Source: a virus. From it: a stretch of 64,000 nt of DNA. The stretch lies in the IMG/VR virus record IMGVR_UViG_3300027708_000060, positions 1 to 64,000 of that record; one strand, given 5' to 3'. Made by a program: the position numbers and the translations under genes. The notes under the pieces were generated by a model. The model made no database searches and was not told the DNA's origin. It saw only the letters and a list, made by a program, of their open reading frames with translations. This document shows positions 1 to 25,846 of this stretch, one piece after another (position 1 is the first letter of the stretch; each line of letters starts with the position of its first letter).

Positions 1-8
1 CACAAACA
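1..8 (+). repeat. Edge-truncated copy of the left-arm 12-mer
   Basis: The window opens with CACAAACA, the last eight bases of the CCAACACAAACA repeat found through the left arm. The first four bases would lie outside the window, so this copy is inferred. It sits about 930 bases before the next copy, which fits the spacing of the rest. Confidence 0.4.
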
Positions 9-40
9 ACCCACGCACCACCTATAAGAAAGGAAAGACA

Positions 41-184
41 ATGCACCTACATTGGATAATTACCCCACGCAATTGGGGTATTGCACTTAATGTCGCTTGG
101 TATTCATTCTCTAAAGAGATTGCTATCCAAGTCGGTCCGTTTAATGTATCCGTATCGTTAGGAGACGAGCAATGGAAGAGTTAG
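41..184 (+). CDS. Hypothetical small protein, 47 aa
   Basis: An ATG follows an AAGGAAAGA ribosome-binding site and opens a 47-codon frame. The protein (MHLHWIITPRNWG...) is rich in aromatic residues (four Trp) and has no cysteine pair or clear membrane helix. Its 3' end overlaps the next gene by 13 bases in another frame, suggesting translational coupling. I do not recognise the family. The support is the good ribosome-binding site and the tight packing. Confidence 0.55.
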   Translation: MHLHWIITPRNWGIALNVAWYSFSKEIAIQVGPFNVSVSLGDEQWKS

Positions 185-300
185 CCCGCATTATTGACGA
201 ACATCTCAGCAAGTTAGAGGAGTTTTGTATCGCAACCCTTGCCGAAGTCGGCACTATGCGTCTGCAAGTCAAACTCCTCAAGGAGACGCTCAATAAGTAG
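172..300 (+). CDS. Hypothetical small helical protein, 42 aa
   Basis: The ATG at 172 follows GGAGACGAGC and overlaps the end of the preceding gene. The 42-residue product (MEELARIIDEHLSKLEEF...) has regularly spaced Leu, Ile and Val with charged residues between, as in an amphipathic or short coiled-coil helix. It is followed by a strong hairpin at 335-377, so it probably closes a two-gene unit. Family not recognised. Confidence 0.6.
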   Translation: MEELARIIDEHLSKLEEFCIATLAEVGTMRLQVKLLKETLNK

Positions 301-313
301 CATTATGTGAGAG

Positions 314-377
314 GTCTACATCTACGTAGACACCGGGCGGGTTGAGAGCTAGAGGGGGCTCTCCCCGCCCTTCTTTT
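314..377 (+). terminator. Rho-independent terminator with upstream small hairpin
   Basis: A GC-rich stem pairs GGGCGGG (335-341) with CCCGCCC (364-370) and continues inward as GAGAG/CTCTC (344-348/359-363). It is followed by TTCTTTT. A smaller hairpin GTCTAC/GTAGAC (314-319/326-331) lies just upstream. The position, between a stop at 300 and a start at 400, suits a terminator or attenuator. Confidence 0.75.
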
Positions 378-399
378 ATCCCTCTACAGGAAGGCAACA

Positions 400-630
400 A
401 TGAACACGCTACAAGTAACAGCCAAGATAAGTAAGGCAGGTGCTATCACTCAGCACGACAAGCACTTGCTATGTCTTGCAATCATTCAACAGGTAATGGC
501 TATGCAGATAAAGGAGACTATCTATGTTCCGCAGTTATCCCAACAAGGACAAGTCCAAGGTACAAAGGATTCAGGAATTGAGGCGCTCGAATGCAGCAAC
601 TTCCTTACCCAACAAGAAGCGTTGGTCTAG
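400..630 (+). CDS. Hypothetical protein, 76 aa
   Basis: The ATG follows AGGAAGGCAACA, a good ribosome-binding site, right after the terminator at 335-377. The product is mostly helical by composition, with a hydrophobic stretch near residues 20-35 (HLLCLAIIQQVMAM) that is short for a membrane helix. Its 3' third overlaps, in another frame, a small basic frame starting at 524 that also has a strong ribosome-binding site, so the true end of coding pressure is uncertain. Family not recognised. Confidence 0.5.
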   Translation: MNTLQVTAKISKAGAITQHDKHLLCLAIIQQVMAMQIKETIYVPQLSQQGQVQGTKDSGIEALECSNFLTQQEALV

Positions 631-673
631 GCGTATGCGTAGGCTATGGAAAAAGGAGATAAGCAATGACTGA
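524..673 (+). CDS. Hypothetical highly basic small protein, 49 aa
   Basis: An AAGGAGA ribosome-binding site (511-517) sits six bases before the ATG at 524. The 49-residue product is strongly basic, with the run KKRWSRRMRRLWKK near its C-terminus, as expected of a nucleic-acid-binding peptide. It overlaps the 3' end of the 400-630 frame by 107 bases and the next gene by 8 bases. Either this or the end of the 400-630 frame could be the real reading. No family recognised. Confidence 0.5.
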   Translation: MFRSYPNKDKSKVQRIQELRRSNAATSLPNKKRWSRRMRRLWKKEISND

Positions 674-908
674 CGATATAACAGTTATCAGTATAGGTAC
701 TAATATTGAATCTAACAAAGGGCTTGTACTAGCCTGTAAGCCGGGCATATATCCAAACACAACAATAGTGCTGTGTTTTCTAGCCCACAATAAAGTAACC
801 CCTTTTGTTGTTCACACATATATGGAAGACTCAGGTATGTGTGTACAAGGGGATTATGGACGAACAATACAAGAAGCAATCTCAGACTATGAGAGCAGAA
901 GGTCATAG
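666..908 (+). CDS. Hypothetical protein, 80 aa
   Basis: AAAAAGGAGATAAGCA directly precedes the ATG, one of the best ribosome-binding sites in this arm. The protein alternates short hydrophobic strands (ITVISIGTNI, TTIVLCFLA) with polar turns, suggesting a small alpha/beta fold. It ends in DYESRRS. No motif allows a functional call. It overlaps a possible downstream small frame at 856. Confidence 0.65.
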   Translation: MTDDITVISIGTNIESNKGLVLACKPGIYPNTTIVLCFLAHNKVTPFVVHTYMEDSGMCVQGDYGRTIQEAISDYESRRS

Positions 909-975
909 AGTAACTAATACTAACTGTCGCTCCAACACAAACAATCCCCGCCTGTACAGTCAGGACACACACTAA
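856..975 (+). CDS. Possible small basic protein, 39 aa
   Basis: AAGGGGATT precedes an ATG at 856. The frame runs 39 codons to a TAA at 973 and overlaps the preceding gene by 53 bases. The 12-mer repeat at 932-943 is read here as a Ser-Asn-Thr-Asn stretch. Composition is polar and basic. Overlap and short length keep confidence low. Confidence 0.35.
   Translation: MDEQYKKQSQTMRAEGHRVTNTNCRSNTNNPRLYSQDTH
932..943 (+). repeat. Left-arm 12-mer copy (CCAACACAAACA)
   Basis: Exact copy, 24 bases after the stop at 908 and inside the possible small frame 856-975. The next copy is 1162 bases downstream. Confidence 0.85.
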
Positions 976-1205
976 ACACCTACACTCAAAGGATAAGCAC
1001 GACGCAGCGGTTGTCTGTTCAACTTAGCGTTCTATGCTTGTAATTCCCCACAGTTGTTGAGCGCAGTGGCGTATCGGATAGATTCCTAGAATCTACTCAC
1101 TAACAGGGCTGTGGAAAAGGTAAACCCGAAGATGAGTAAAGGTCCTTTTGTAGTTCGTTTAGTGTGTGTCCTGGTTGTATAGACAACCAATGAAAGGAAT
1201 ATCGA

Positions 1206-1322
1206 GTGTGTATTGAGAAATTAGGCAAAGCAGTTGCTAAGGCTTCGAACGCTTTACTCAGTAATGAGTTCGCTAATAGATGTATCCGAACCCCTGGTCT
1301 GAGCCCTTTACGATACCCATAG
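1206..1322 (+). CDS. Possible small protein, 38 aa (GTG start)
   Basis: AAAGGA (1193-1198) lies seven bases before a GTG that opens 38 sense codons ending in TAG. The peptide (MCIEKLGKAVAKASN...) starts with an amphipathic, Lys/Ala-rich helix and ends in a Pro-rich tail. It is the only frame with a plausible ribosome-binding site in the 976-1465 gap. No homology recognised, and it could be chance. Confidence 0.35.
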   Translation: MCIEKLGKAVAKASNALLSNEFANRCIRTPGLSPLRYP

Positions 1323-1385
1323 CCATCGTGAGTTATGGATTGAACTGATTGTCCAATCCCTCTTTAATCCTGGATAACTGACAGT

Positions 1386-1439
1386 ATGGGGGTTGCCTAG
1401 CAACCCCCATCTGTATTAGTATTCCCACAAGTAGTGGGA
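1386..1439 (+). promoter_or_regulatory. Two tandem hairpins upstream of a zinc-ribbon gene
   Basis: The first is an 11-bp perfect stem, ATGGGGGTTGC pairing with GCAACCCCCAT, with a CTA loop (1386-1410). The second is TCCCAC/GTGGGA with a 5-base loop (1423-1439), ending 11 bases before the AAAGGAGGT ribosome-binding site of the gene at 1466. Neither has a T-run, so they may be structured leader, processing or attenuation elements rather than simple terminators. Confidence 0.5.
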
Positions 1440-1465
1440 TGTACCTGCTAAAAGGAGGTACCGCA

Positions 1466-1669
1466 ATGGCGAAACCCGCCTTGCAATATTGTAACAACTG
1501 TGGTCGGAGAATCCAATCACACCAATCCAAGCTAGAAATCAGAGTCCGCAATGGTACTGATACCTATCACGAAACTTGGAAAGGTTGTTACGAATCCACT
1601 CGAGAGAGTGGCAAATATGTCTCTACTAAATTGGAAGAAGATCTTGTAAAGATTACTCCAATTTACTAG
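1466..1669 (+). CDS. Small putative zinc-binding protein, 67 aa
   Basis: I chose the ATG at 1466 because AAAGGAGGTACCGCA lies directly upstream; an in-frame ATG at 1439 lacks a ribosome-binding site. Residues 9-12 form a CNNC knuckle followed by GRRI. A further Cys lies near residue 44 (KGCYES), and no second CxxC is present, so metal binding is only likely. Small basic zinc-knuckle proteins are common in phage early regions. Function unknown. Confidence 0.7.
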   Translation: MAKPALQYCNNCGRRIQSHQSKLEIRVRNGTDTYHETWKGCYESTRESGKYVSTKLEEDLVKITPIY

Positions 1670-1710
1670 TGACAGTTGGTCTGGCGAGACCTGAGGTAAA
1701 ACACGACTCC

Positions 1711-1829
1711 TGAGCAATGAGGTTAAACTGCTCACCATAATTGGTATGGCACGATAGTGATAGCTCCTAGGAGTAAAAAGTATCCTCGCCTACGCCAAAC
1801 ATCCTGAGCACGATGATTAAAACTGCTCA
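1711..1829 (+). repeat. Pair of similar hairpins (TGAGCA...TGCTCA) in a 5' leader
   Basis: TGAGCA (1711-1716) pairs with TGCTCA (1729-1734). A near copy repeats at 1805-1810 and 1824-1829. Both are preceded by CCTGAGCA and contain GATTAAA/GGTTAAA-like loops. The second hairpin ends 19 bases before the start codon at 1849, so the pair could regulate that gene. It does not match an RNA family I know. Confidence 0.5.
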
Positions 1830-1848
1830 TCTAATAGAAAGGATAACA

Positions 1849-2088
1849 ATGGAAGATTTTAAAACCACACCGATACACAAAACAAATGTATTACCTCTTA
1901 GATGGTTTGCTAATTGGTGCGACCACTTATCTTCATACCCATTGCATAAAGCATTAAGATATGAAATTAAGTATGAGAACGAAGAGACTATGCCCAAAGC
2001 AGGGTATAGATGGTGGAAGTTATATAGCATCATAGATGCACCCTATCGTAAATGGGGAACAACTGATCTATTAGATTGGCATATCTAA
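1849..2088 (+). CDS. Hypothetical protein, 79 aa
   Basis: The start is placed at 1849 because GAAAGGATAACA precedes it; the in-frame ATG at 1813 falls inside a hairpin and lacks a ribosome-binding site. The product is rich in Trp, Tyr and Lys (LPLRWFANWCDHL, GYRWWKLYSIID), suggesting a compact soluble fold. Its stop overlaps the next start as TAATG. No family recognised. Confidence 0.65.
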   Translation: MEDFKTTPIHKTNVLPLRWFANWCDHLSSYPLHKALRYEIKYENEETMPKAGYRWWKLYSIIDAPYRKWGTTDLLDWHI

Positions 2089-2243
2089 TGCAACCAACAC
2101 AAACAACGCCCGACACATTCATCGGCAAGCACCTGTTCATTATAGAGGCCCAGTTATTCTATGGCCTCACACGCAACGAAGCATTGATGCTATGGAATGA
2201 TGGCATCAACACTCTATACACTCGTGTAGAGACAATCAACTAA
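2088..2243 (+). CDS. Hypothetical protein, 51 aa
   Basis: The ATG overlaps the preceding stop (TAATG at 2086-2090). The 51-residue product reads through the 12-mer repeat as PTQT at residues 3-6. A helix-rich segment follows (FIIEAQLFYGLTRNEALML), somewhat like a small DNA-binding helical hairpin, but I cannot assign a family. It ends 20 bases before the next gene, whose ribosome-binding site is GAAAGGGG. Confidence 0.6.
   Translation: MQPTQTTPDTFIGKHLFIIEAQLFYGLTRNEALMLWNDGINTLYTRVETIN
2094..2105 (+). repeat. Left-arm 12-mer copy
   Basis: Exact CCAACACAAACA, six bases after the stop at 2088 and within codons 3-6 of the next gene. It is 1162 bases after the previous copy and 1210 before the next. 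Confidence 0.85.
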
Positions 2244-2263
2244 CCTCCGAAAGGGGCCAGACA

Positions 2264-2557
2264 ATGGCAAAAGGTAGAGGAGGAGCACCAGCTCCTAAAG
2301 TAAACACAGCGGGCGACCGTAAGAACGGTAAAGCACGCAAGAAAAACCCAGGCCCAGCACAGCCAGAAAAGACTAACTTCACTCACGTGAATGGTCGCAG
2401 TGCTGCTAGTAATGCCAAGCGTGAAGCTTGGAAGGCTATGGGTGGTCGTTGGAACCACAAATCAATTCCTCATTGGAAAACAGGAAAGGTGTACACAGCA
2501 ACATCTCTAACTCCGGCATTTGATCCTGAGAAGTTAGAGGCTATGTCTAATGCCTAA
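2264..2557 (+). CDS. Hypothetical basic protein, 97 aa
   Basis: GAAAGGGGCCAGACA precedes the ATG. The first half is disordered and basic, rich in Gly, Ala, Pro and Lys (AGDRKNGKARKKNPGPAQP). The second half contains AKREAWKAMGGRWNH and an aromatic-rich tail. This looks like a nucleic-acid-associated protein, but no specific family is visible. It overlaps the next gene by 8 bases. Confidence 0.65.
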   Translation: MAKGRGGAPAPKVNTAGDRKNGKARKKNPGPAQPEKTNFTHVNGRSAASNAKREAWKAMGGRWNHKSIPHWKTGKVYTATSLTPAFDPEKLEAMSNA

Positions 2558-2855
2558 TAACCTCAAAGTCTACTCTTTGGACTACCTCAAAGAGAAAAAA
2601 TATTCCGATGACTTGACCGAAGATGCCACTCGTCTAGAGTGTGCTGGTCGTGTTATAGGTATGGTCGATCGTTTAGCAAAAACCAAGCTCTTGCACCTTA
2701 CCGAAGATGAGCTTCAGAGTCTGAAGAGCGCATTGGTTTACGCAACGATTGGAGAAACGCCAGTAGGCAATGCCTACGTTGAAAACACTCTCGTGGTTAT
2801 TGATAGCCAAGAGAATGAATATGTTGCAGGAGTCCCTGTAACACCACCTAACTAA
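2550..2855 (+). CDS. Hypothetical protein, 101 aa
   Basis: Starts within the 3' end of the preceding gene (GAGGCTATGTCTA region) and is probably coupled to it. Predicted mainly helical in residues 5-65 with many Asp, Glu and Lys. A short strand-rich tail (YVENTLVVIDSQENEYVAG) ends in Pro-Pro-Asn. No Cys pairs, nucleotide-binding loop or helix-turn-helix is evident. Function unknown. Confidence 0.65.
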   Translation: MPNNLKVYSLDYLKEKKYSDDLTEDATRLECAGRVIGMVDRLAKTKLLHLTEDELQSLKSALVYATIGETPVGNAYVENTLVVIDSQENEYVAGVPVTPPN

Positions 2856-2868
2856 AAGGAGGCGTGCT

Positions 2869-3303
2869 ATGGCCAGTAACAAGGTCATCGCAACAACTTG
2901 GGCTAAGAAAGACTTAGTCAAGAAACTAACCGAAACACTCAAGCGTATGGACGCAGAGATAAGTGAATGGGAAAAGAACCAATCAACTCTCAACAAGCGT
3001 CAAGACGCTTGGGATAGCAAAGCCAAAGCATGGGCTAAAAAGAATGTAGCTAAAGCTTACGAGGTTGATACTAATAAGTATCACAATCGATTCTCTTTAA
3101 CCTATTCATTTAATATTGAATTGGCTGAGGCTGCGCTAGGTGAACGCCCAACTAATGAGCGTGAACCACAGTACAAAAATACTCGTCATGATGCTGTATC
3201 TGAGTATGAGCAAGTACAAAATGCTATCGCTCTAATTGATGGTGCAACTGATACTGAATTCAAGATCAGTTCATCATCTACATGGGCGTCATTCATTCGC
3301 TAA
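2869..3303 (+). CDS. Hypothetical coiled-coil protein, 144 aa
   Basis: AAAAGGAGGCGTGCT is a strong ribosome-binding site. Residues 10-70 are Lys/Glu-rich with heptad-like hydrophobics (LVKKLTETLKRMDAEI), suggesting a coiled coil. The C-terminal half resembles a small structured domain ending in STWASFIR. It closes a gene run: its stop abuts a 12-mer copy and a terminator. No family recognised. Confidence 0.7.
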   Translation: MASNKVIATTWAKKDLVKKLTETLKRMDAEISEWEKNQSTLNKRQDAWDSKAKAWAKKNVAKAYEVDTNKYHNRFSLTYSFNIELAEAALGERPTNEREPQYKNTRHDAVSEYEQVQNAIALIDGATDTEFKISSSSTWASFIR

Positions 3304-3315
3304 CCAACACAAACA
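3304..3315 (+). repeat. Left-arm 12-mer copy between stop codon and terminator
   Basis: Exact CCAACACAAACA begins on the base after the TAA at 3301-3303 and ends four bases before the terminator stem. The stop, 12-mer, terminator order recurs on the opposite strand at 11212-11165. Confidence 0.9.
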
Positions 3316-3319
3316 AACC

Positions 3320-3345
3320 AGCCCCCGTCAGCAATGGCGGGGGCT
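3320..3345 (+). terminator. Hairpin terminator
   Basis: AGCCCCCG (3320-3327) pairs with CGGGGGCT (3338-3345) around a short loop. Only a weak T-run follows (TTACCC), and the next ribosome-binding site is 10 bases away, so read-through is likely. Confidence 0.6.
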
Positions 3346-3366
3346 TACCCATAAGGAGGTACCAGT

Positions 3367-3678
3367 ATGCGAAAGTTACTGGTTAAGCGCAAGGGACTGA
3401 TTGACAAGATCAATCGGTTAATGTGGGAAGAACATCAAGATAGCCAGTTCGAAGAGAGCCAAGTAATGCGCTCTTATAGTGCCGGCATAATCGATGGTCT
3501 TGGCATGGTAATTGGCTTATTGTCAAATCAACCCGCACAAGAAGCACCGATCTTCCCCATTAGTCTTTCTTTTTATGAGGAAGAAGAACCAGCAAAACAG
3601 GTTGAGCGTCTGCGTGAGCGGATGTTTGACTTACAACAGCAGAGCAAAGTATCATTATTTTATGAGGAGGTTGATTAA
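3367..3678 (+). CDS. Hypothetical protein, 103 aa
   Basis: TAAGGAGGTACCAGT precedes the ATG. The N-terminus is basic (MRKLLVKRKGLIDKIN), the middle has a short hydrophobic helix (SAGIIDGLGMVIGLLSN), and the C-terminal third is acidic and helical with QVERLRERMFDLQQQ. This suggests an oligomerising helical protein. The stop overlaps the next start (TAATG). Confidence 0.65.
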   Translation: MRKLLVKRKGLIDKINRLMWEEHQDSQFEESQVMRSYSAGIIDGLGMVIGLLSNQPAQEAPIFPISLSFYEEEEPAKQVERLRERMFDLQQQSKVSLFYEEVD

Positions 3679-4403
3679 TGATTCCTGATTGGAATTGGGG
3701 TTCGACTTTCTTATCTGGAGGTCGCAAGAAGTATGAGCGTCCTTTATATGATAGAGGTCTTCGCATCTGGAAAGAAAACAAATGGGACGCTGATAGTCCC
3801 ATAAATATAGGTTGGCACTTTGGTGGAGGAACAAGTAAGTTCGTTACCTTCCATAAAGACGGAACAACTGTTATCAGCGGTATAGATACAGTTACACATT
3901 GGGGCAGTACTTGGAACCCATTACGCAGTCACTCAGTACGTCTTACTATCCAACGTTACGCAGGTATTCAAGTATTCCAGCGTAATCATAAGTTCTATTT
4001 ACAAGAAGATGGCGCCCCTCTTAGTAAGCCTAAGATACAAGGCTGTCGTCAATGTTCACAGACCGGATTATTAGATGGTTGGTGCAGCACCGATACTTGT
4101 TACAACGTCAAAATAAATGAAAAAGGCTTTCAAACCTGCGCAAAACATCCTGATATGGATGTTAAGGGCCATAGATACTGGCATAGCTTGCCGTGTGTAC
4201 ACGGAAATGATCAGTCTCATATGGTAAAGAGAAGCCAAACTTGTTATTTCTGTAGTGGCTCTAAGAAGAGAGACTATGGAAGTAAACCTGAGCGTACACA
4301 GTGGGATGGAACCCCTCTTCGTTTACGTGATGGAAAGATCATCAAATCAGCAGCAACACTACTAGAAAGGATGGTGGCAGACTATGTCGAACCTATCGGC
4401 TAA
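3678..4403 (+). CDS. Hypothetical multi-zinc-binding protein, 241 aa
   Basis: Starts in a TAATG overlap. The N-terminal 110 residues are Trp- and Gly-rich beta-like sequence (IGWHFGGGTSKFVTFHKDGTT). The C-terminal half carries CRQC, CSTDTC, a Cys-His stretch (CAKHPD, GHRYWH, CVHG) and CYFC, enough ligands for two or three zinc sites. The arrangement suggests a DnaJ/ribbon-type zinc protein acting on nucleic acid or protein, but no exact family is recognised. It overlaps the next gene by 20 bases. Confidence 0.7.
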   Translation: MIPDWNWGSTFLSGGRKKYERPLYDRGLRIWKENKWDADSPINIGWHFGGGTSKFVTFHKDGTTVISGIDTVTHWGSTWNPLRSHSVRLTIQRYAGIQVFQRNHKFYLQEDGAPLSKPKIQGCRQCSQTGLLDGWCSTDTCYNVKINEKGFQTCAKHPDMDVKGHRYWHSLPCVHGNDQSHMVKRSQTCYFCSGSKKRDYGSKPERTQWDGTPLRLRDGKIIKSAATLLERMVADYVEPIG

Positions 4404-4875
4404 GTATGATCCACAAGCAGTCTATCCACAGATAAGCGGCTCAATAGATGGGGCAGAACAATTAGTTCTGTATGTAAGTGCAGGCATTATGCCTAGCAAT
4501 CTACTTGAGTGGTCAACACAAACAGAAGCGCTACGTGATGCTTTCTTAGTGATCGCATTAAAAAGCAATTCAACAGAAGGATGTGCTAGAACATTTATTC
4601 AAGCACTAAATACTGTTGAGCATGTTCAAACAAAAACCGAACTTACTCTTTGTGAATACGCAGCGAGTATGGCTTATATGTCAGGTCAATTAGACTTGGC
4701 AAAAGAAGTAATTATGAGAGTACCGGCACAACAAGCCTCTAATTACATCAAGACTCTGTATCAAGCCATTGGCTTACGCAAATGGACCTCAGAGACTTTC
4801 AACCAAGCAATCGCTAACACAACTGATAACGCTATCAATATGTGGAACGTTGAAAAAGAATCACTAAACCTCTAG
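4384..4875 (+). CDS. Helical protein, possibly DUF4192-like, 163 aa
   Basis: Starts within the preceding gene (AAAGGATGGTGGCAGACT upstream). The C-terminal half (CEYAASMAYMSGQLDLAKEVI followed by a repeated helical unit) resembles the actinobacterial DUF4192 pattern, in which a hydrophobic helix is followed by small-gene-dosage-like repeats. The match is from memory and weak, and the protein is much shorter than cellular members. A 12-mer near copy lies inside the gene at 4513-4524. Confidence 0.55.
   Translation: MSNLSAKYDPQAVYPQISGSIDGAEQLVLYVSAGIMPSNLLEWSTQTEALRDAFLVIALKSNSTEGCARTFIQALNTVEHVQTKTELTLCEYAASMAYMSGQLDLAKEVIMRVPAQQASNYIKTLYQAIGLRKWTSETFNQAIANTTDNAINMWNVEKESLNL
4513..4524 (+). 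repeat. Near copy of the left-arm 12-mer (one mismatch)
   Basis: TCAACACAAACA differs from the consensus only at base 1. It lies inside a gene and is read as STQT. It is 1209 bases after the copy at 3304 and 1307 before that at 5820, so it falls into the same spacing. Confidence 0.7.
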
Positions 4876-5094
4876 GTTTGGTATCACATATGAATACCAA
4901 ATAGGATGAGTTGGCTAAGCCCACCTCTAATCATACTTAATCAATTCAAGAACCGAGTAATTTAAAGGCTCACGCATTAGTAGTACGTGATAACTAATGT
5001 ATGCGAGATGAAAAGAGAAGGTGCGATGGGCATTCAGTCCCTGTGCGGCAACGGAGGTAAGCCAACTCAACCTAATAACAGAAAGGAACTAATC
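4876..5094 (+). promoter_or_regulatory. 219-base structured leader, no gene seen
   Basis: Contains TTTGGTAT/ATACCAAA (4877-4884/4894-4901) immediately after the preceding stop. A long imperfect hairpin follows around 4970-5008 (CTC and ATTAGT pairing with ACTAAT and GAG). A GGG/CCC hairpin lies near 5035. The gene downstream starts at 5095 with its own AGAAAGGAACT site. No known riboswitch consensus was recognised. Confidence 0.4.
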
Positions 5095-5358
5095 ATGTGC
5101 CACGAATGTGGGGATGATGATGATGAGCCAGAGTTCAGTAGCGATGCTATCGAACAACTGCAGCAAATGCCTGAAGATGTCAGAAATGAAATTATTTCTG
5201 AACTTCAAGACCATATGAACTATATTATGGAGAAGGCAGAAGAGAACGGCTTTTTGTTTGAGCTCATTACACAATGGCCTAGACAAAAGGTAGCAATGTA
5301 TGAAGCAGCAGTCGTCATGCAAAGACAAGTTCTTCGTGACGAAGAAAACTACAACTAG
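5095..5358 (+). CDS. Acidic small protein with N-terminal CxxC, 87 aa
   Basis: I chose the ATG at 5095, preceded by AGAAAGGAACTAATC; a longer in-frame start at 4987 lies in the structured leader without a ribosome-binding site. The protein starts MCHECGDDDDEPEF, a single CxxC followed by an acidic run. The rest is helical, with LQDHMNYIMEKAEENG. It is 11 bases before the AAA+ ATPase gene, with GAAAGGA between, so both are probably co-expressed. Function unknown. Confidence 0.7.
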   Translation: MCHECGDDDDEPEFSSDAIEQLQQMPEDVRNEIISELQDHMNYIMEKAEENGFLFELITQWPRQKVAMYEAAVVMQRQVLRDEENYN

Positions 5359-5369
5359 AAAGGAACACA

Positions 5370-6758
5370 ATGGAGATAGCAGTATTCACCGAGTCTTACG
5401 AACCAAGTATGGGTGCTAAGCGACGTCAAATCCTTATGTCCCCGCATGAAGGTGGAGTCAGAATCTGGTCTCGAATGACTGATGGTAGCAAAGGTCCACA
5501 CAATAAGTGGGAGGATGCTCACGTAGATCAATTCGTGAACATGATTGATAGCAATGAGCAATTGACACGGACCCCTGTTGGCGTATATGTTACGGCAGCA
5601 GATGAGAAGGCAATTGCAGACAAAGGCTATTCTCCTGTATTGGGAACTAAAGCATGTAATCAGCATGCTAAGGCTGAACCTAATACAGATACAACACCGT
5701 TCTTAGATAAACTCTATGAACTGTATGACCAAACACTAATTGGAGATGACACATTGGAAACATATGTAATAGATAATCGTCGTCAAGCTGGTGCAACAGT
5801 CCCGTTGGTAGTTCCTGTGCCAACACAAACAATGGACAACACATCAGTATCATCCGGTGGCAAAGTGTTTAGCGTAAATCTTGCAACAGTTCCACGCAAG
5901 GAATTAGCTGAGCGCTATGTACATCGCAAGGTGTGGGGCGTGGAAGACTTCAAAGTCTATGACCACGCACGTGCTGAAGGTATCAACGTGCTTATCTATG
6001 GCCCAACTGGCCCTGGTAAGACTACATCAGTTGAAGCGTGGGCCTCAGAGCGTGGCTTACGTATGGCATCAATCTCTGGTAATGCATCAATGGAGCCAAG
6101 TCAAATGACTGGAAAATTCGTCTCCGATGGAGAAGGTGCATTCATGTGGATTGATGGTCCAGTAACTGACGTAGTTCGCAATGGTGGCGTTCTTTTGCTT
6201 GATGAGGTTAACTTCATCAATCCTAAGATCTATACCAATCTGTATTCATTGACCGATGGTCGTCGCAATATTATATTGCTCGATCATCACGGCGAGACTA
6301 TTGAGGCTCATCCAGACCTTACTATCTTTGCTACTATGAATCCAGATTATATCGGCACCACGCCGCTCAACTTTGCGTTCCGCAATCGCTTCGACATTCA
6401 AATCCCTTGGGATTATGACGATGCTGTTGAGGAGAAGTTGATTGGTTCTAAGGCTCTTCGCATATTGATGAAGCAACTTCGTGTAGAGGCTGCTAAAGGT
6501 CAATATGAAACACCAATCTCTACCAATATGGGTATGGAGTTCACTAAGCTTGTAGACGATCTTGGCTATGAGTTTGCAGCAGAGAACTTTATCGCTCACT
6601 TTAGTACAGATGAGCAAGCCAGCGTACGCATGGTCTTCCAGACTCATGAGTACAACATCAAGACTGACTTTGGTCTAGATACTGGTGAAGTAACAGAGCA
6701 TCCTGCAGATGCAAGCATTGACCAACGCCTGGAAGAATGGGCTAAACAACTAGTATAA
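5370..6758 (+). CDS. MoxR/CobS-like AAA+ ATPase
   Basis: The 462-residue protein has an unrecognised N-terminal part (1-165) and an AAA+ module. Walker A is GPTGPGKTT at residues 211-219, Walker B is VLLLDEV at about 274-280, a sensor-1-like TIFATMNPDY lies near 305, and FRNRFD provides an arginine-finger-like motif. The layout fits the MoxR/CobS group, which remodels partners through a VWA-domain protein. The next gene, 9 bases on, encodes exactly such a VWA protein. CobS-like genes are known in cyanomyoviruses, where cobalt chelation is only inferred. No chelatase large subunit is seen here, so a chaperone-type role is at least as likely. A 12-mer copy lies at 5820-5831, read as PTQT. Confidence 0.88.
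   Translation: MEIAVFTESYEPSMGAKRRQILMSPHEGGVRIWSRMTDGSKGPHNKWEDAHVDQFVNMIDSNEQLTRTPVGVYVTAADEKAIADKGYSPVLGTKACNQHAKAEPNTDTTPFLDKLYELYDQTLIGDDTLETYVIDNRRQAGATVPLVVPVPTQTMDNTSVSSGGKVFSVNLATVPRKELAERYVHRKVWGVEDFKVYDHARAEGINVLIYGPTGPGKTTSVEAWASERGLRMASISGNASMEPSQMTGKFVSDGEGAFMWIDGPVTDVVRNGGVLLLDEVNFINPKIYTNLYSLTDGRRNIILLDHHGETIEAHPDLTIFATMNPDYIGTTPLNFAFRNRFDIQIPWDYDDAVEEKLIGSKALRILMKQLRVEAAKGQYETPISTNMGMEFTKLVDDLGYEFAAENFIAHFSTDEQASVRMVFQTHEYNIKTDFGLDTGEVTEHPADASIDQRLEEWAKQLV
5820..5831 (+). repeat. Left-arm 12-mer copy inside the AAA+ gene
   Basis: Exact CCAACACAAACA, read in frame as Pro-Thr-Gln-Thr in the linker before the AAA+ domain. It is 1307 bases from the preceding near copy. Confidence 0.85.
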
Positions 6759-6767
6759 GGAGGTTAA

Positions 6768-8663
6768 ATGCTTATAGATGAAGTAGATGACTCACCGTGG
6801 GGAGGAGACGCTCGTTCAGAACTAGAACAAGAACGCATCATTCAATTAGGTGCTCTTTGTCGTGTGTATGAACAAGCAGATCGTGTTCTTACAGGTGATC
6901 CACTAATCGTCAACGTAATGGCTGGTGGGCCTGCGCCCGCTTGGTCTGACGGTGCCGCAATCTATATCAATCAAGAAGAAATATCTGAGATGGATATGGA
7001 AACACTAACTCAGGTGACGGGCCTGAACTATCATGAGCTAGCCCATCATTTCTATACGCCTCGCAAGGGTACAGAACTGATCAAATGGGTTCTACAAAAT
7101 GATTATATGGAGGCTACCAACATGTTGGAAGACCAGCGCATTGAGACATTACTATGTGCTAGGTATCCAGCTGTTGCTCCATATCTAATTGGTACTGTGG
7201 CTAGATGGCTAGGTGAAACACCAGAGGAAACCTCTGGCGCTTACATGCTAGTACGTGGTCGCAGATATCTACCGGTAGAGATTCGGGAAGCGTATCGAGA
7301 TGCGTTTGCATTCCCCGAACTTATACCTAACATCATGGATATCGTGGATCAGTATCGCTTACTTGCATTCCCTAGGGACTACATGAAAGCACAAATACTT
7401 ATCGAACGCTTTAATGATGAGGTGCTCAAGCCTATACGCAAAGAGTTCCCAGACATATCGGGTGGTCCTAATGCTTGCGGTAGCCGTGATCCAATGGCTA
7501 AGGGTCGTCCTGAGCCTGGCAAGATGCAAGAGAAAGACTCACAACGTGCAAGTAATATGGGTAAAGCAGAGTCAGTGTATATGCCTAAGCCTAAAACTAA
7601 GGAAGACAACGCCAACACAAACAAACCCGATGCCAGCGATGAGGGCCTCAACATACCGGCACCACAAAGCGCAGCAGAAGCACTAGCAATACGTGACATG
7701 CTTCAGAAAGCACAGCAAGATGCACCACCATCTATTGATCCTGGTAAAGGACATCATGAGAGTAAGGGTGGTATTCCAGACAATATCAATAATGCATTAA
7801 ACAATGCAATTGATGAGGTCTATGCTAACAAAGCAGTTCAACAGGATATCAAAGCCAAGCAACGAGTAATCGTTGGTGGTGATGGTAAGTTCGATGAGTC
7901 TACTAAGGATGGCAAATTCGACCTCACCGATGTTCCTAATGACACAGTCGTTATGTATCGTGCTTTTGCTAGAGAGCTTGAGCGCTTACGTGATGAGTGT
8001 GAGCCAGGTTGGAACAAAGGCGTACCAAGTGGTAAGCTAAATGTCCAACGTGTTATCAATGGATGTGAAGTAGACGAAGCCTTTGACCGTTGGGAAGAGG
8101 GTAACGATGGTGCTGATGTAGAAGCGGTGATCTTAGTTGATCGATCCGGTTCTATGAGCAGTGACCAAAATGATCGTAGCGCATCCTTAGCATGCTGGAC
8201 TATCAAGCGTGCTCTTGAGGCTATCGATGCACCGGTAACGGTGTACGCATTCGATGATAAAACCGAGATTGCCTACAAACGTACAGAGCGTGCTCACAAA
8301 ACACGCTTTAAGTTTATATATGGCAATGGAGGTACCAATCCATATGGCTCACTGATTGCTGCTGAACAGCTTCTCATGTCTTCTCGTAAGAAGAACAAAA
8401 TGCTGTTTATCATTACTGATGGTGCGTTTAACCACGAAAGAAATGACGAGGTTATACAACGTATTAGTAAGCGTGGCATTCTAACTGCGATGACTCTAAT
8501 CATGCGTGATCGAGATTACACGTGGTATACAGAACGTGGAGAAAGCGATAATAGTTTTCGCCATGAAGCTGAAATCTATGGGCGTATCAACTCTGCCCGT
8601 GATCTAATCCCATTTGCCAAAGCGGTAGTAATGGGTGCAATCAAAAAGCGTAGAAGCGCTTAA
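6768..8663 (+). CDS. CobT-like VWA protein with HExxH metallopeptidase-like domain
   Basis: AAGGAGGTTAA precedes the ATG, 9 bases after the ATPase gene. Residues 89-94 read HELAHH in a metallopeptidase-like context, with a downstream acidic segment (NMLEDQRIE, E121) that could supply the third zinc ligand. The middle (about 230-370) is Pro/Lys/Ala-rich and disordered. The C-terminal domain (about 450-620) is a VWA fold with the MIDAS signature DRSGSMS near residue 457 and a later TDGAFN. Known VWA-peptidase proteins pair with MoxR ATPases. I infer a two-component remodelling or proteolytic machine made early in infection; substrate unknown. A 12-mer copy lies at 7612-7623 in a different reading frame from the one at 5820. 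Confidence 0.85.
   Translation: MLIDEVDDSPWGGDARSELEQERIIQLGALCRVYEQADRVLTGDPLIVNVMAGGPAPAWSDGAAIYINQEEISEMDMETLTQVTGLNYHELAHHFYTPRKGTELIKWVLQNDYMEATNMLEDQRIETLLCARYPAVAPYLIGTVARWLGETPEETSGAYMLVRGRRYLPVEIREAYRDAFAFPELIPNIMDIVDQYRLLAFPRDYMKAQILIERFNDEVLKPIRKEFPDISGGPNACGSRDPMAKGRPEPGKMQEKDSQRASNMGKAESVYMPKPKTKEDNANTNKPDASDEGLNIPAPQSAAEALAIRDMLQKAQQDAPPSIDPGKGHHESKGGIPDNINNALNNAIDEVYANKAVQQDIKAKQRVIVGGDGKFDESTKDGKFDLTDVPNDTVVMYRAFARELERLRDECEPGWNKGVPSGKLNVQRVINGCEVDEAFDRWEEGNDGADVEAVILVDRSGSMSSDQNDRSASLACWTIKRALEAIDAPVTVYAFDDKTEIAYKRTERAHKTRFKFIYGNGGTNPYGSLIAAEQLLMSSRKKNKMLFIITDGAFNHERNDEVIQRISKRGILTAMTLIMRDRDYTWYTERGESDNSFRHEAEIYGRINSARDLIPFAKAVVMGAIKKRRSA
7612..7623 (+). repeat. Left-arm 12-mer copy inside the VWA gene
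   Basis: Exact CCAACACAAACA, here read Ala-Asn-Thr-Asn in the disordered linker. The frame differs from the PTQT reading elsewhere, so the conserved unit is DNA or RNA rather than peptide. Spacing from the previous copy is 1792 bases, the largest gap. Confidence 0.85.
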
Positions 8664-8675
8664 CCAACACAAACA
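8664..8675 (+). repeat. Left-arm 12-mer copy between stop and ribosome-binding site
   Basis: Exact CCAACACAAACA starts on the base after the TAA at 8661-8663 and runs directly into the AAGGAGGAAAA ribosome-binding site of the next gene. Confidence 0.9.
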
Positions 8676-8685
8676 AGGAGGAAAA

Positions 8686-8877
8686 ATGTACACAGTATAT
8701 GACAATGTCACAGAAACACTTATAGGGCCATTCAATGACTATGAAAGTGCAGAGATGTTCATACTGCATGCTTCAGATGCCATGATTGATGGTGGCGCCA
8801 ATCTAACAATCGAATCCATCTCTGAACCACAGGAATGGGCAATGGATAATCACCTATTAATGGAAGCGGTAATGTAA
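8686..8877 (+). CDS. Hypothetical protein, 63 aa
   Basis: The ATG at 8686 is chosen because AAGGAGGAAAA lies directly upstream; the longer in-frame start at 8635 is inside the VWA gene. The sequence (MYTVYDNVTETLIGPFNDYESAEMFI...) resembles short phage proteins with a beta-hairpin then a helix, a layout common for small modulators, but no family is named. The stop overlaps the next ATG (TAATG). Confidence 0.7.
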   Translation: MYTVYDNVTETLIGPFNDYESAEMFILHASDAMIDGGANLTIESISEPQEWAMDNHLLMEAVM

Positions 8878-9197
8878 TGGGAGAAGTGTTTAACTTCGAA
8901 GAATATCTAACAGCAAAAAAAGCTGGAGTATCTATACAGGCACTCAGGTCTGCTAGACAAGTAGCAGGGGAGATGATTAAAGAATTTACTCCAGAAGAAT
9001 TAGCGGGTGAGTACTATCAATATGATGTGGATCCAGATGAGTCAGATTGGCCGCCTGGTTACCCATTTATATTGAAAGAGGACTCGCTAAAACCTGAACA
9101 CCAAATGTGTAAACATTTTGAGTGGGAGGTAATGGAAGAGGACTATCAAGTCCGTTGTACATCATGTAACCTAAACGCTTGGAGCGCACCATGGTAA
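8877..9197 (+). CDS. Hypothetical protein with C-terminal zinc site, 106 aa
   Basis: Starts in a TAATG overlap. The N-terminal half is helical (FEEYLTAKKAGVSIQALRSA). The C-terminal end carries C-x-H (MCKHFEW) and CTSC, a plausible single zinc ribbon. The 3' end overlaps the next gene by 7 bases. Family unknown; a regulatory or nucleic-acid-binding role would be speculation. Confidence 0.65.
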   Translation: MGEVFNFEEYLTAKKAGVSIQALRSARQVAGEMIKEFTPEELAGEYYQYDVDPDESDWPPGYPFILKEDSLKPEHQMCKHFEWEVMEEDYQVRCTSCNLNAWSAPW

Positions 9198-9643
9198 ATA
9201 CATTTCTACCGTATGCAAACTTCGTGCAAGTAGCGGAATCCTTAGACGATAGGAGATTGGGTAAGCAACGTGTAGAAGCGTTTCAAATACTCAAGGCCAA
9301 CCTGGGTCTAACTGAGGGATGGCGCAATCACCCTGCTGCTGTAATGTGGCGTGGTAACGAAGGTATGCTAGCTGCCTATGCTATCACTATGTGTAATGAG
9401 TGGTCAAAGCGTGGGTTCGTAGATAATATGAGGGGGCAAATAATCGAACTTATGAAACAACATAAGCTTGTAGCTATCAAGAAACCTTGGTGGTTAGGAG
9501 CAGAAGAGTTTCATAAGAGTCATCAATCTAACTTAAAGCGTAAGCTTCCAGAGCATTATGACTTTGAGGTAGAAGATGACTTGCCATACAAATGGCCTAT
9601 GCCAGATGGGTCATTCCGAGTAACAACAAAGGGGGTGGAATAA
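9191..9643 (+). CDS. MSMEG_6728-like protein (pyrimidine-dimer DNA glycosylase family)
   Basis: I place the start at the ATG at 9191, with GGAG seven bases upstream; the frame could begin with a TTG at 9179. The N-terminus (NTFLPYANFVQVAESLDDRRLGKQR) and GWRNHPAAVMWRG match my recollection of the actinobacterial MSMEG_6728 family, related to the pyrimidine-dimer DNA glycosylase DenV group. Length (150 aa) fits. Members would excise UV-damaged bases, which suits a phage exposed to sunlight, but activity is inferred only from the family. Confidence 0.75.
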   Translation: MVNTFLPYANFVQVAESLDDRRLGKQRVEAFQILKANLGLTEGWRNHPAAVMWRGNEGMLAAYAITMCNEWSKRGFVDNMRGQIIELMKQHKLVAIKKPWWLGAEEFHKSHQSNLKRKLPEHYDFEVEDDLPYKWPMPDGSFRVTTKGVE

Positions 9644-9867
9644 TGGTAGATAGAAATATGTATAGAGTAACAATCCATGAACATAGGATATATGACTCAT
9701 TCATTACAGCATCATCCGAAGCTGAAGCTAAAGCTCTTGCTGAAGAACAGATTATGGATGAGAACTCAGCCAAATGGCGTGAGGACTTTAACGCTGGATG
9801 GGCTGAAGTAGGAGACATATATAATGAAACCGAAGAAGATGAAATAAATGCCGCACTGATACTGTGA
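9643..9867 (+). CDS. Hypothetical acidic protein, 74 aa
   Basis: Starts in a TAATG overlap after GGGGGTGGAA. The product is acidic, with an N-terminal beta-like segment (YRVTIHEHRIYDSFITASS) followed by an Ala/Glu helix (EAEAKALAEEQIM). This pattern is frequent in short phage proteins of unknown function. A 12-mer copy follows its stop. Confidence 0.65.
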   Translation: MVDRNMYRVTIHEHRIYDSFITASSEAEAKALAEEQIMDENSAKWREDFNAGWAEVGDIYNETEEDEINAALIL

Positions 9868-9873
9868 CATCGC

Positions 9874-9885
9874 CCAACACAAACA
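9874..9885 (+). repeat. Left-arm 12-mer copy after a stop codon
   Basis: Exact CCAACACAAACA, seven bases after the TGA at 9865-9867 and upstream of the GGGAGAAA ribosome-binding site. It is 1210 bases from the copy at 8664. Confidence 0.9.
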
Positions 9886-9904
9886 TCAGCAGAAATGGGA
9901 GAAA

Positions 9905-10114
9905 ATGTCCAATGACAAGTTAACAACAAAACTCAAAATACTCTATGAGGTAACTATTGCCAAGTGGCGTATTGGAGATCAAGAACAAATAGAAAACCGA
10001 GAATGGTGTCTATATGTGTATGACCGCAACAAAGAAGAATGGATCCAGGTTAATGCATTAGATTCACCAGGCGAAGGTGCAGTTATTAAACACATACACA
10101 TAATAGAAGAGTAA
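9905..10114 (+). CDS. Hypothetical protein, 69 aa
   Basis: ATGGGAGAAA precedes the ATG. The 69 residues alternate strands and charged turns (TKLKILYEVTIAKWRIGD, WCLYVYDRNKEEWIQVN), consistent with a small beta-rich fold. It ends in a hairpin at 10114-10135. No family recognised. Confidence 0.65.
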   Translation: MSNDKLTTKLKILYEVTIAKWRIGDQEQIENREWCLYVYDRNKEEWIQVNALDSPGEGAVIKHIHIIEE

Positions 10115-10135
10115 CCCCGGGCGCATGTCCGGGGT
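10114..10135 (+). terminator. Hairpin after the 69-aa gene
   Basis: ACCCCGG (10114-10120) pairs with CCGGGGT (10129-10135) around an 8-base loop, directly overlapping the stop codon. It lacks a T-run, so it may be a weak terminator or an mRNA-stabilising 3' hairpin. The next 78 bases before the gene at 10214 hold no gene. Confidence 0.5.
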
Positions 10136-10213
10136 ACTCAACTGAGGGTGATAACTCTGTCGTACTTAGAGCTAGCACCTTTAGTATACCTTACACACTA
10201 GAAAGGATATCCA

Positions 10214-10453
10214 ATGTTCGAATTTGCTAACTTTCAATTGAAGGATAAACAAATGCGAAAACTGATCTCTGCTCTAGAGGATGCTGGCCTTGACGTCTCA
10301 ATAACGCCAGGCAAGCACCACATAAAAGTGGTCAATAGTGACACCAAACAAGTGGTATTCTTTGGACAACAGTCCTTAGGAGACTTTAGAGCAGGAAAAA
10401 ATATACTCAGAGACCTAAAGAAGGTAGGCTTTGAGTCAAACATAAAACTATAG
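10214..10453 (+). CDS. HicA-like small protein, 79 aa
   Basis: GAAAGGATATCCA precedes the ATG. Residues 15-70 (KLISALEDAGLDVSITPGKHHIKVV then strand and FRAGKNILRDLKKVGF) match the HicA layout: helix, Gly turn, a His in the strand after the turn, strands, then a basic C-terminal helix. HicA toxins are small dsRBD-like mRNA interferases whose key residue is that His. No HicB-like antitoxin follows, so this is an orphan member. In a phage it may act on host RNA or simply bind RNA. Assignment is by pattern only. Confidence 0.6.
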   Translation: MFEFANFQLKDKQMRKLISALEDAGLDVSITPGKHHIKVVNSDTKQVVFFGQQSLGDFRAGKNILRDLKKVGFESNIKL

Positions 10454-10464
10454 GAGAGCAACAA

Positions 10465-10755
10465 ATGGATAAAAAAGTATCACAAATGCTAAAAGCAGAT
10501 CTAAATAAGAACGTCATCGTAGAAAAAGGTGGAGCATGGTTACTACATATAACAGTAACAGAAGAAGACACCACCATAACAGATAGCTTTACAGCATGGG
10601 CTAACCCATCTGCTGCTAAACGCTATCTAAAGCAGTTCGTAATCAGATTCACACCACGCAAGTCTATTAAGATGGTAGTTCAAGCTACAACTCCACTAGG
10701 TAAGCCGTCTCATTTAACTGGCGAACTAACCTATAAGGTAGACGAGAGAGCATAA
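10465..10755 (+). CDS. Hypothetical protein, 96 aa
   Basis: TAGGAGAGCAACAA precedes the ATG. The sequence is Lys/Thr-rich with alternating strands (WLLHITVTEEDTTITDSF) and a helix (SAAKRYLKQFVI). I compared it with HicB because of the preceding gene, but the characteristic partially degraded RNase H-like core is not evident. It is coupled to the next gene by TAATG. Function unknown. Confidence 0.65.
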   Translation: MDKKVSQMLKADLNKNVIVEKGGAWLLHITVTEEDTTITDSFTAWANPSAAKRYLKQFVIRFTPRKSIKMVVQATTPLGKPSHLTGELTYKVDERA

Positions 10756-10952
10756 TGGATATGGAAACAGTTAAACCCCTGACATGTAGTAACTGCCATG
10801 GCAGGGGATATCTATTCTTTGGTAACACAGAAGAATGGGATGTACAACCTTGTGAAGACTGTGATGATGAGGCGGGAGCTAACTATCTCCTAGCTGCTGA
10901 TGCATATGACCAAATAGAAATGGAAATGGAGGACAAAGATGGCACGTTATAG
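10755..10952 (+). CDS. DnaJ-type zinc-finger-like small protein, 65 aa
   Basis: Starts in a TAATG overlap. CSNCHGRGY near residues 11-19 is a CxxCxGxG DnaJ-type half-site, and CEDC near 33-36 supplies a second CxxC, so one zinc ion could be bound. The C-terminus is acidic. Such mini-zinc proteins are common in phage early regions and are usually uncharacterised. It overlaps the next gene by 14 bases. Confidence 0.7.
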   Translation: MDMETVKPLTCSNCHGRGYLFFGNTEEWDVQPCEDCDDEAGANYLLAADAYDQIEMEMEDKDGTL

Positions 10953-11151
10953 CGTTATATTCGATAGTAGTAGGGCAGGAGTATTATCATTCATAGCGGA
11001 TGATGATAACCACGCAATTGAAATCTATGAAAATCTTTTAACAGAGGATATCTATATAGATGATCTTGATGATGCCCAGGAACAAACTGAAGAGAGTAGT
11101 TCTACGTTCTATGAACTACGCTCTGGTAACGGTAAGTTAATAGCCGAATAA
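10939..11151 (+). CDS. Hypothetical acidic protein, 70 aa
   Basis: GGAGGACAAAG precedes the ATG inside the preceding gene. The protein is acidic (DDDNHAIEIYENLLTEDIYIDDLDD) with a short strand-rich N-terminus. It is the last rightward gene before the convergent terminator. No family recognised. Confidence 0.65.
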   Translation: MARYSVIFDSSRAGVLSFIADDDNHAIEIYENLLTEDIYIDDLDDAQEQTEESSSTFYELRSGNGKLIAE

Positions 11152-11159
11152 TCTCAAAC

Positions 11160-11194
11160 AAAAAGCCCCTCGGCCATTATGGTCGGGGGGCTTA
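11160..11194. terminator. Bidirectional terminator at the convergence point
   Basis: AGCCCC...CGGCC pairs with GG..CG.GGGGCT (about 11164-11192) around an ATTAT loop. It is flanked by A-rich sequence on the left and CTTAA on the right, so it can end rightward transcription from the left arm and leftward transcription from the RNR operon. Confidence 0.75.
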
Positions 11195-11195
11195 A

Positions 11196-11207
11196 TGTTT
11201 GTGTTGG
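11196..11207 (-). repeat. Inverted left-arm 12-mer copy
   Basis: TGTTTGTGTTGG on the plus strand is the exact reverse complement of the repeat. It lies five bases after the stop of the leftward acidic gene and just before the terminator, mirroring the arrangement at 3301-3345. The distance to the previous copy is 1322 bases. Confidence 0.9.
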
Positions 11208-13457: not shown

Positions 13458-14936
13458 TTAAAGTTTAAAGCCCTCATCTAATATTCTACTCGATTGGGCC
13501 TCACTTAGTCCACCGTTAGGGAGCTCACGGAGAGTGTTAGCTTTGTCACCAAATAGGGCTGACAATACACCGCCAGAAGTTTGGCGCTCTGCTGTGATAC
13601 GGATGAACTCTTTATTCTCTTCCAGTTCTTTCATTTGACCAACCAATTTAAAGAGTCGATCAATCTCTTGTCCAGTGTTAGGATCCGGGTATCCGCCGTT
13701 CAATTCCTCTGCATATCGTGCAAAAGCGACTCTAGCGCCCTGCATTTCGATAACTGTGTTGAGTAAACCCTTAAGTTGCTCTTTAGTCTTAATCTCTACA
13801 GGTAGATTGAAAGCACAACTATTAGCAGGTTTAAAAGCAGGACAATTTGCCGCTACAAAGCAAGTATCGCATTGACGAAGTGATGCAGAGGTGCTAGAAA
13901 GGATAGGTACATCTTTAAGAACATCTTTTCCATCCTCATCTTTTTCAACAACCGTCTTAACTTTTACACCAAAAACAGGCAGAATCTGACGGTCATTTAC
14001 GTCTCTTTCTGCCAAAACTTTCCTACCTTCTGAAGGTCTCTTATCAGGAAGCGCACCACCTGTTTCCGCACTTCCTGGGTCATCTATAAACTCACTGTTA
14101 TCAGATAGCTTCTTACCGGATCTTTTATCCAAGGCGTTCTCCAGTTGCATGTAGGACCATATAGCGAGGCGGGTTACCTCATTACTATCGTCATTAATAA
14201 TCTTGTCGTAGTCTAAACCAGCTCTCTCAATGATCGCTTTATAGCGAGGACGAGCTTGATCTTTTTGCTTCTTCTGGTAACGAACCAAACGGGTTCCATC
14301 CCAGACAATTGTTTCTCCACGCATCATTGGACTTAACCAAGAAAGACTGCTTGCTGTGGTCAATGCCACCTGGCGTAGGTTATCAGGTTTGGCACATGCC
14401 ACACCGTGAAATTGTAGATCAGGGAACTCATTTAGAAGGGCTCTAGAACGGGCTGCAAGGCTTGTATCGTCCTCTAAAGTCTCTCCTAGTAGGGCAATGT
14501 TCATGTATCGCTCTGCAAGGCCGTAGAGGGCCGTATGGCCTAATTCTGGGTGCCACACTACCCAAAGCTTATCTTCCCCAAGATTCTCAATCATAGTGGT
14601 GCGATGGTAGTTAGTCCATGAAGGCCCAAGTACTTTAGCGTCTAGCTCAGTAGCTCCAGAGATTCTTTCGGCATTGATGCCGACCCATTCCTGGTAGTTC
14701 TCCGCATACTCTTGAATCTCACGCTCAGTCATGTTAAGGTCATTGATCTGGTGCCCGCCACCATCTACGTAGACTTTAACATCATCCGGAAATCTTCCCT
14801 GGATCAAGTAATCTTTGGTCTTAGGCAAGCCACGCTTGACTAAACGATAATAGTTGACGCTAACATGCTTAACTCCCATGTTAGTAAGTAATATGCGATG
14901 GGACGGTACTTCAGCCCCCATGAATACCAGGTTCAT
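13458..14936 (-). CDS. TGT/DpdA-like protein with C-terminal cysteine cluster
   Basis: Residues 1-250 resemble a tRNA-guanine-transglycosylase-type TIM barrel. VDGGGHQIN (D58-Q63) aligns with the TDSGGFQ base-binding motif. WHPELG, a MNIALLG segment and FHGVACAK (from F176) follow in DpdA-like order. DpdA enzymes exchange guanine for 7-deazaguanines in DNA. In SSLSW (196-200) a Ser stands where I expect an acidic residue, so catalysis is uncertain. The C-terminal third has C356, C359, C365 and C374, a possible zinc or Fe-S site, and then a helical tail. No que or preQ0 genes are in the window. It overlaps the HAD-like gene upstream by 4 bases (ATGA). A non-catalytic role is possible. Confidence 0.6.
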   Translation of the reverse strand: MNLVFMGAEVPSHRILLTNMGVKHVSVNYYRLVKRGLPKTKDYLIQGRFPDDVKVYVDGGGHQINDLNMTEREIQEYAENYQEWVGINAERISGATELDAKVLGPSWTNYHRTTMIENLGEDKLWVVWHPELGHTALYGLAERYMNIALLGETLEDDTSLAARSRALLNEFPDLQFHGVACAKPDNLRQVALTTASSLSWLSPMMRGETIVWDGTRLVRYQKKQKDQARPRYKAIIERAGLDYDKIINDDSNEVTRLAIWSYMQLENALDKRSGKKLSDNSEFIDDPGSAETGGALPDKRPSEGRKVLAERDVNDRQILPVFGVKVKTVVEKDEDGKDVLKDVPILSSTSASLRQCDTCFVAANCPAFKPANSCAFNLPVEIKTKEQLKGLLNTVIEMQGARVAFARYAEELNGGYPDPNTGQEIDRLFKLVGQMKELEENKEFIRITAERQTSGGVLSALFGDKANTLRELPNGGLSEAQSSRILDEGFKL

Positions 14937-25552: not shown

Positions 25553-25846
25553 TTAACTTACGTTGATTGTAAAGACAATTGCACTAATCTGTCCGTCTCT
25601 TGAATCTACCGTAGTAAATCCTGGGCGACAGGTTAGGTTCATACCTCGTGGTGCAACGTAACCGCTGGCAATAGCAATAGCTTTTACCGCCTGGTTAACT
25701 GCTGAGGCCCCCACTGCACGTAAGTGCACCTGAGGTTTTTCATAAAGGGCGTGGGCAATAGCCGACCCGACTGACTGTGCATTAGAGCCAGCCCCTACAC
25801 GTAGGAACTTCTCTTCTGTATTAGGTGTTGTTGGAGTATCGGTCAC
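25553..25846 (-). CDS. SpoVS-like protein, 97 aa
   Basis: The GTG at 25846 with AAAGGACTACAAATC upstream is preferred over a GTG at 25882. FLRVGAGSNAQSVGSAIAHA, VHLRAVGASAVNQAVKAIAI and GYVAPRGMNLTCRP match the SpoVS family strand-helix pattern, known from Bacillus sporulation and from Thermus and Deinococcus. Members form small oligomeric, possibly nucleic-acid-binding proteins whose molecular role is not established. A phage copy near repair and recombination genes suggests binding to DNA or RNA. The function is inferred only from the family. Confidence 0.85.
   Translation of the reverse strand: MTDTPTTPNTEEKFLRVGAGSNAQSVGSAIAHALYEKPQVHLRAVGASAVNQAVKAIAIASGYVAPRGMNLTCRPGFTTVDSRDGQISAIVFTINVS

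Follow-up and report, generated by a model that had tools for sequence, protein, structure and literature searches.

The cluster K start-associated sequence is a repeated element of about 13 bp in actinophage genomes, the lambda nut and HK022 put sites are short transcript elements that often precede terminators, and the RfaH ops sequence is a 12-nt polar element that acts during elongation. The sites bound by the repressors of cluster A phages are asymmetric, 13 bp long and aligned with the direction of transcription, and such a site loses its function when reversed (PMC9283540, PMC6550527). The array studied here resembles the cluster A stoperators (L5, Bxb1) in consisting of short asymmetric sites that occur in multiple copies and are oriented with transcription, the orientation holding in the clade of the window phage and not in one distant relative, G020. 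As with stoperators, the word differs between lineages, and the sites of both systems occur in actinobacteriophages. Conversely, the array lies mainly in one early arm rather than genome-wide, its sites are often inside genes and quasi-regularly spaced, and the phages that carry it have no tyrosine integrase (PF00589; 15 records) and no identified repressor. Its 12-mer also stays unchanged across deeply diverged phages, and hairpin pairs or antisense copies occur in distant relatives. Because the genome-wide spread and intergenic placement of stoperators were not found here, we do not claim that the array consists of stoperators proper.

The window, that is, the whole stretch of 64,000 nucleotides that was analysed, is part of a 71,937-bp viral record. 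The word repeated through its left arm is the 12-mer CCAACACAAACA, present as seven exact copies on the + strand, one copy with a single mismatch, one copy cut by the window edge and one inverted copy. These copies and their neighbors are listed below; the hairpins, like all promoter-like and terminator-like labels in this work, are called from sequence alone.

1–8, + strand: first copy, cut by the edge (CACAAACA), whole in the near-identical contig L010
932–943, + strand: copy in a short ORF (about 859–975, read by eye; SNTNN)
2094–2105, + strand: copy early in a 51-aa ORF (QPTQT; called by eye)
3304–3315, + strand: copy immediately 3' of a TAA and 5' of the hairpin at 3321–3344
3321–3344, + strand: GC hairpin 3' of the 3304 copy, giving the order stop, motif, hairpin
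4513–4524, + strand: variant copy with one mismatch (TCAACACAAACA), coding (STQT)
5370–6758, + strand: AAA ATPase gene (MoxR/CobS-like), one 12-mer site within
5820–5831, + strand: copy in the ATPase linker
6768–8663, + strand: VWA-domain gene (CobT-like), one 12-mer site within
7612–7623, + strand: copy in the VWA linker
8664–8675, + strand: copy immediately 3' of the VWA stop codon and 5' of an AGGAGG ribosome site
9874–9885, + strand: copy, intergenic
11163–11193, no strand: convergent hairpin, intrinsic-terminator-like
11196–11207, − strand: lone inverted copy, with the last leftward stop on one side and the convergent terminator on the other

The eight exact copies and the variant at 4513 that the preliminary description had reported are all present at the coordinates given there. 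L010, in which 2 of 16,755 positions differ from the window, holds the full CCAACACAAACA where the description saw a copy cut at position 1. Its statement that the word is far commoner than chance also stands, as 8 exact copies were observed in 64 kb, compared with about 0.01 expected under order-2 or order-4 Markov models. The spacing, described there as even, is quasi-regular and not periodic: the mean is 1235 with a CV of 0.19, a regularity matched by uniform placement in about 1 of 10,000 draws. Nothing within one mismatch of the word occurs in the remainder of the 71,937-bp record. The order of stop, 12-mer and terminator at 3301–3344 and, on the − strand, at 11212–11163 was likewise correctly described, as were the copies directly after stop codons at 3304 and 8664 and the differing frames of the coding sites.

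A search of IMG/VR with the ATPase gene found relatives at 33 loci, roughly half of which belong to records of 98–105 kb. Together with the window, 14 long records formed a comparison set of 15, mostly phage records of about 100 kb; those longer than 100 kb were read up to base 100,000, and the environmental records may be incomplete. In these 15 records, the 12-mer marks one operon of about 12 kb (the AAA-ATPase/VWA genes), which faces opposite to the large late/replication block. All 111 arm copies with at most one mismatch are oriented with the operon. In 13 records the sequence extends to the convergent end, and each of these has one inverted copy there. The earlier observation that copies follow transcription and flip at the convergence holds in these relatives as well. 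Nearly all inverted copies follow the final gene of the opposing operon and immediately precede the terminator hairpin.

Spacing is quasi-regular in separate, distant clades (CV 0.17–0.45), with uniform-placement P values from <1e-4 to 0.04 that are not independent, since the records are related. In most genomes, no k-mer of the arm is more over-represented than the 12-mer. Arrays are eroded in some clades (G006, G007, G011, L032). The window phage and the Gordonia phages Gray and GMA6 confine their respective words to the arm; in several relatives, additional copies are thinly scattered over other operons, many of them adjoining hairpins, such as a TAA, motif and terminator in the late block and a hairpin and motif after the capsid gene. 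Most arm copies are intragenic, although the ORF calls in the relatives were mechanical (at least 240 nt, greedy) and the coding and intergenic counts are accordingly approximate. The sites are found in all reading frames and are not mainly in short intergenic spaces or promoters. In the window, its relatives and the Gordonia phages they do not stand immediately upstream of start codons. The suggested analogy with cluster K start-associated sequences, which are likewise repeated short actinophage elements, thus does not hold: the 12-mer has no link to start codons, and many copies are in mid-gene or after stops.

The copy at 5820 illustrates what is under selection. The ATPase-linker 12-mer, whose first base is either C or T, is kept in 25 of 26 phages (it is lost in L032) and in the window, inside a linker whose length and other residues vary freely. 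In the fourfold-type codons of the motif, 3 of 3 third bases are invariant, compared with 1 of 71 in other fourfold codons whose first two bases are invariant (25 phages). Across the arm, variation in the 12-mer is limited to positions 1 (C/T) and 12 and, rarely, 3, 5, 7 and 10. Since the 12 bases are kept inside a freely varying linker, selection acts on the nucleotides of the 12-mer.

By their ATPase and VWA proteins, the nearest isolates are Gordonia phages. The 12-mer was not found in GMA6 and Gray, and Cantare has no exact copies. In the homologous operon, GCTCCGGGTG is among the most over-represented dispersed words, with 7 exact copies in Gray, 7 in FlyingTortilla, 6 in GMA6 and 5 in ChisanaKitsune, none of them antisense. 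The genomes of Gray and GMA6 are complete, and their exact copies all fall within 11.3 and 16.6 kb, respectively, of early region. The sites fall in all three frames, and a stop codon, 5 nt, the motif and a terminator follow one another in Gray (L115, 19323), ChisanaKitsune (L412, 7912) and FlyingTortilla (L413, 10787). The VWA linker region holds the word of its own lineage in most freshwater phages and in three Gordonia phages; in DalanDe and Cantare, GCTCCGGGTG was not found as an array. Judging from this analogous all-sense array of another word in the homologous operon, the array appears to be a general device whose plan is common to both lineages and whose word is lineage-specific. Among the literature matches listed for either word, none concerns phages, and the polar dispersed array seems not to have been described previously as a control signal. 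Another sequence, AAAGGAACGCG, is repeated 5' of early genes in ChisanaKitsune, FlyingTortilla and Gray (L412, L413, L115) and probably serves as an extended ribosome site.

Scanning viral contigs for the pattern recovered more distant arrays, and every locus longer than 5 kb with at least three copies also holds genes of this phage lineage. Records such as G015–G018 and G025 have 39–68 genes in common with the window family at about 45–50% identity, and their layout is likewise RNR, then convergent end, then ATPase/VWA arm. In arms of this type, an antisense copy, a spacer and a sense copy lie between a terminator and promoter-like DNA, with the antisense copy first in 48 of 48 distinct pairs. 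The 8 bases inside each 12-mer are fully paired in 30 of 47 elements, versus 2% with arms swapped between elements, which argues that the spacer is selected to fold. G020 has nine copies, at 43.3–49.2 kb of the arm, all antisense and most followed by a C-rich CCCACCCACCC stretch. Therefore, sense-only polarity is strict in the window clade and not universal.

In G020 (L394–L397, 43.3–49.3 kb), the antisense 12-mer and CCCACCCACCC are followed by a CRP-like TGTGAC..GTCACA palindrome, GGGTGTAGGT and then early genes. Inverted 12-mer pairs in L250, L253, L263, L292, L294 and others flank imperfect palindromes or three-way-junction folds and are followed by phased direct repeats (GTTAT.., CTGAGAGATT..) and promoter-like DNA. 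A DnaA-box-like TTATCCACA stands beside most paired elements in the arms of G016, G017 and G025 only (L358–L366, L385–L389); DnaA boxes were rejected as a general partner, as they accompany the pairs in some relatives only and the window phage has no TTATNCACA-type box. Rfam gave nothing over the 12-mer elements beyond a marginal Phe_leader match over the hairpin element of L263 (1567–1679, − strand; 57.9 bits, cut-off 55), probably a cross-match. A cyanobacterial contig of Leptolyngbya sp. FACHB-8 (L357, 3629–3677) holds a lone perfect 49-nt palindrome whose outer stem is the 12-mer. Integron attC sites were also rejected, because the RYYYAAC...GTTRRRY order is reversed in the paired elements and there is no PF00589 integrase.

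A WhiB gene (27673–28014) is present in the window and across the phage family and, with the actinophage relatives, suggests actinobacterial hosts. No repressor or other binding protein for the 12-mer was identified, and no NusG N-domain protein (PF02357) is phage-encoded in the 15 phage records, a search that covered the phage proteins. The genes that track motif-rich versus motif-poor genomes encode only small proteins of unknown function, none convincing. A MerR-like HTH protein of the Gordonia arms was rejected as the factor: its match in a single freshwater phage (E 0.008) is weak at best. Enrichment of RNA structure beside the window-clade sites is weak upstream (−7.0 versus −5.8 kcal/mol) and absent downstream. 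Elsewhere in the window, a SpoVS (Alba-like) protein that is kept across the family and is a possible nucleic-acid binder is encoded at 25553–25882 (− strand), and a queuine tRNA-ribosyltransferase-like gene (PHROG 887) at 13458–14936 (− strand) possibly encodes a DpdA-type DNA modification enzyme.

We tentatively prefer a mechanism in which the 12-mer works by a stoperator-like polar block of elongating RNA polymerase. The asymmetric 12-mer would be the recognition site of a sequence-specific factor acting on the polymerase of the early arm, and with sites spaced by about 1.2 kb, a polymerase would soon meet one wherever it was located. The sites would function in one direction only, most likely by polar blocking or early release of the elongating polymerase, so that the early operon could be silenced at the right time, and polymerase coming from the leftward genes would be kept out of the arm by the inverted copy. 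We infer that the 12-mer is read by a protein, that this protein recognizes DNA and not RNA, and that it blocks the polymerase. We prefer this mechanism because its anatomy is documented in actinophages, including the loss of function on reversal (PMC9283540, PMC6550527), and because turnover between lineages affects the word as a whole; a word that changes while its position and polarity stay is expected of a co-evolving recognition factor. The consistent polarity of arm and end copies, the quasi-regular spacing in distant clades, the rank of the 12-mer among arm k-mers and the selection seen in the ATPase linker all count in its favor, and the general idea of the preliminary description, an actinophage cis-element working in the direction of transcription, fits as well. 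The distant paired and antisense copies favor a DNA-level site, as they stand between a terminator and promoter-like DNA, where sense RNA should be scarce. Conversely, neither a binding protein or repressor nor a tyrosine integrase was identified, the word is constant across freshwater phages at about 45% amino-acid identity whereas stoperators drift, and a roadblock immediately 5' of a terminator would be redundant. The all-antisense copies of G020 and the palindromic spacers of the paired elements, which imply a folded strand, also count against a block.

Nearly as likely as the block, and taken by itself rather doubtful, is a signal carried by the early mRNA and acting at the RNA level: nut/put-like antitermination that has to be reloaded every 1–2 kb, or a tag for cleavage or decay by a phage or host endoribonuclease that would clear early mRNA. 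The sense-only copies in the window clade and the Gordonia phages, the use of every reading frame, the order of stop codon, motif and terminator hairpin seen in both lineages and the position of the motif 5' of internal late-operon terminators in relatives are all consistent with such a signal, and a regular, upper-bounded spacing would suit limited processivity or fragmenting. The distant pairs and antisense copies, the lack of an encoded NusG N-domain protein and the absence of strongly enriched structure beside the sites argue against it. Some copies of the 12-mer or GCTCCGGGTG lie 5' of terminators, and many do not. In contrast to nut and put, which number one or two, the array has 8–12 repeats; it requires no hairpin in the window clade and has no known factor. 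The likeness to ops as a 12-nt polar element is offset by the many copies and by the 15 genomes encoding no RfaH/NusG-like protein.

A polarity set by replication or recombination is improbable. Under this explanation, the 12-mer would be a lagging-strand priming site, a fork barrier, a Chi-like site or a cassette-exchange boundary, oriented by fork direction or module order. Short oriented sites are typical of such signals, the spacing is close to the length of Okazaki fragments, and the paired hairpin elements look like structured DNA sites. However, the sites are confined to the early arm, their polarity flips exactly at the convergent transcription terminators, and the ATPase and VWA linkers are not module boundaries; the reading of the 12-mer as a primase or packaging signal found no specific support. 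Chance, codon bias or functionless shared descent can be ruled out. Two frames do recur among the coding sites (PTQT, NTN), but the excess of copies, the invariant third bases, the regular spacing and the turnover of the word at fixed places are incompatible with such an origin. The possibilities that the preliminary description had left for its own dismissal, namely a motif random in related phages, irregular spacing outside the window, or codon bias of small genes, were not borne out, as relatives keep the array with its polarity and quasi-regular spacing and selection on the nucleotides is clear. It is near certain that the 12-mer is a real, selected, polar element.

It is possible, if still somewhat doubtful, that these sites represent a layer of control which is widespread among actinobacteriophages that appear virulent and has not been described before. 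Its quasi-periodic polar marks would run through the early operon, also within genes, with a 10–12-nt word particular to each lineage, and would set the persistence of polymerase or of early mRNA. The mark is encoded in the genome and selected on nucleotides through protein-coding genes, with polarity and spacing fixed, and its plan is common to environmental phages and cultured Gordonia phages even though the word has changed. With two lineage words, the recognition factor may be searched for by co-variation. Since Gray, GMA6 and their relatives grow on laboratory hosts, the role of polar dispersed sites in an early operon is directly testable.
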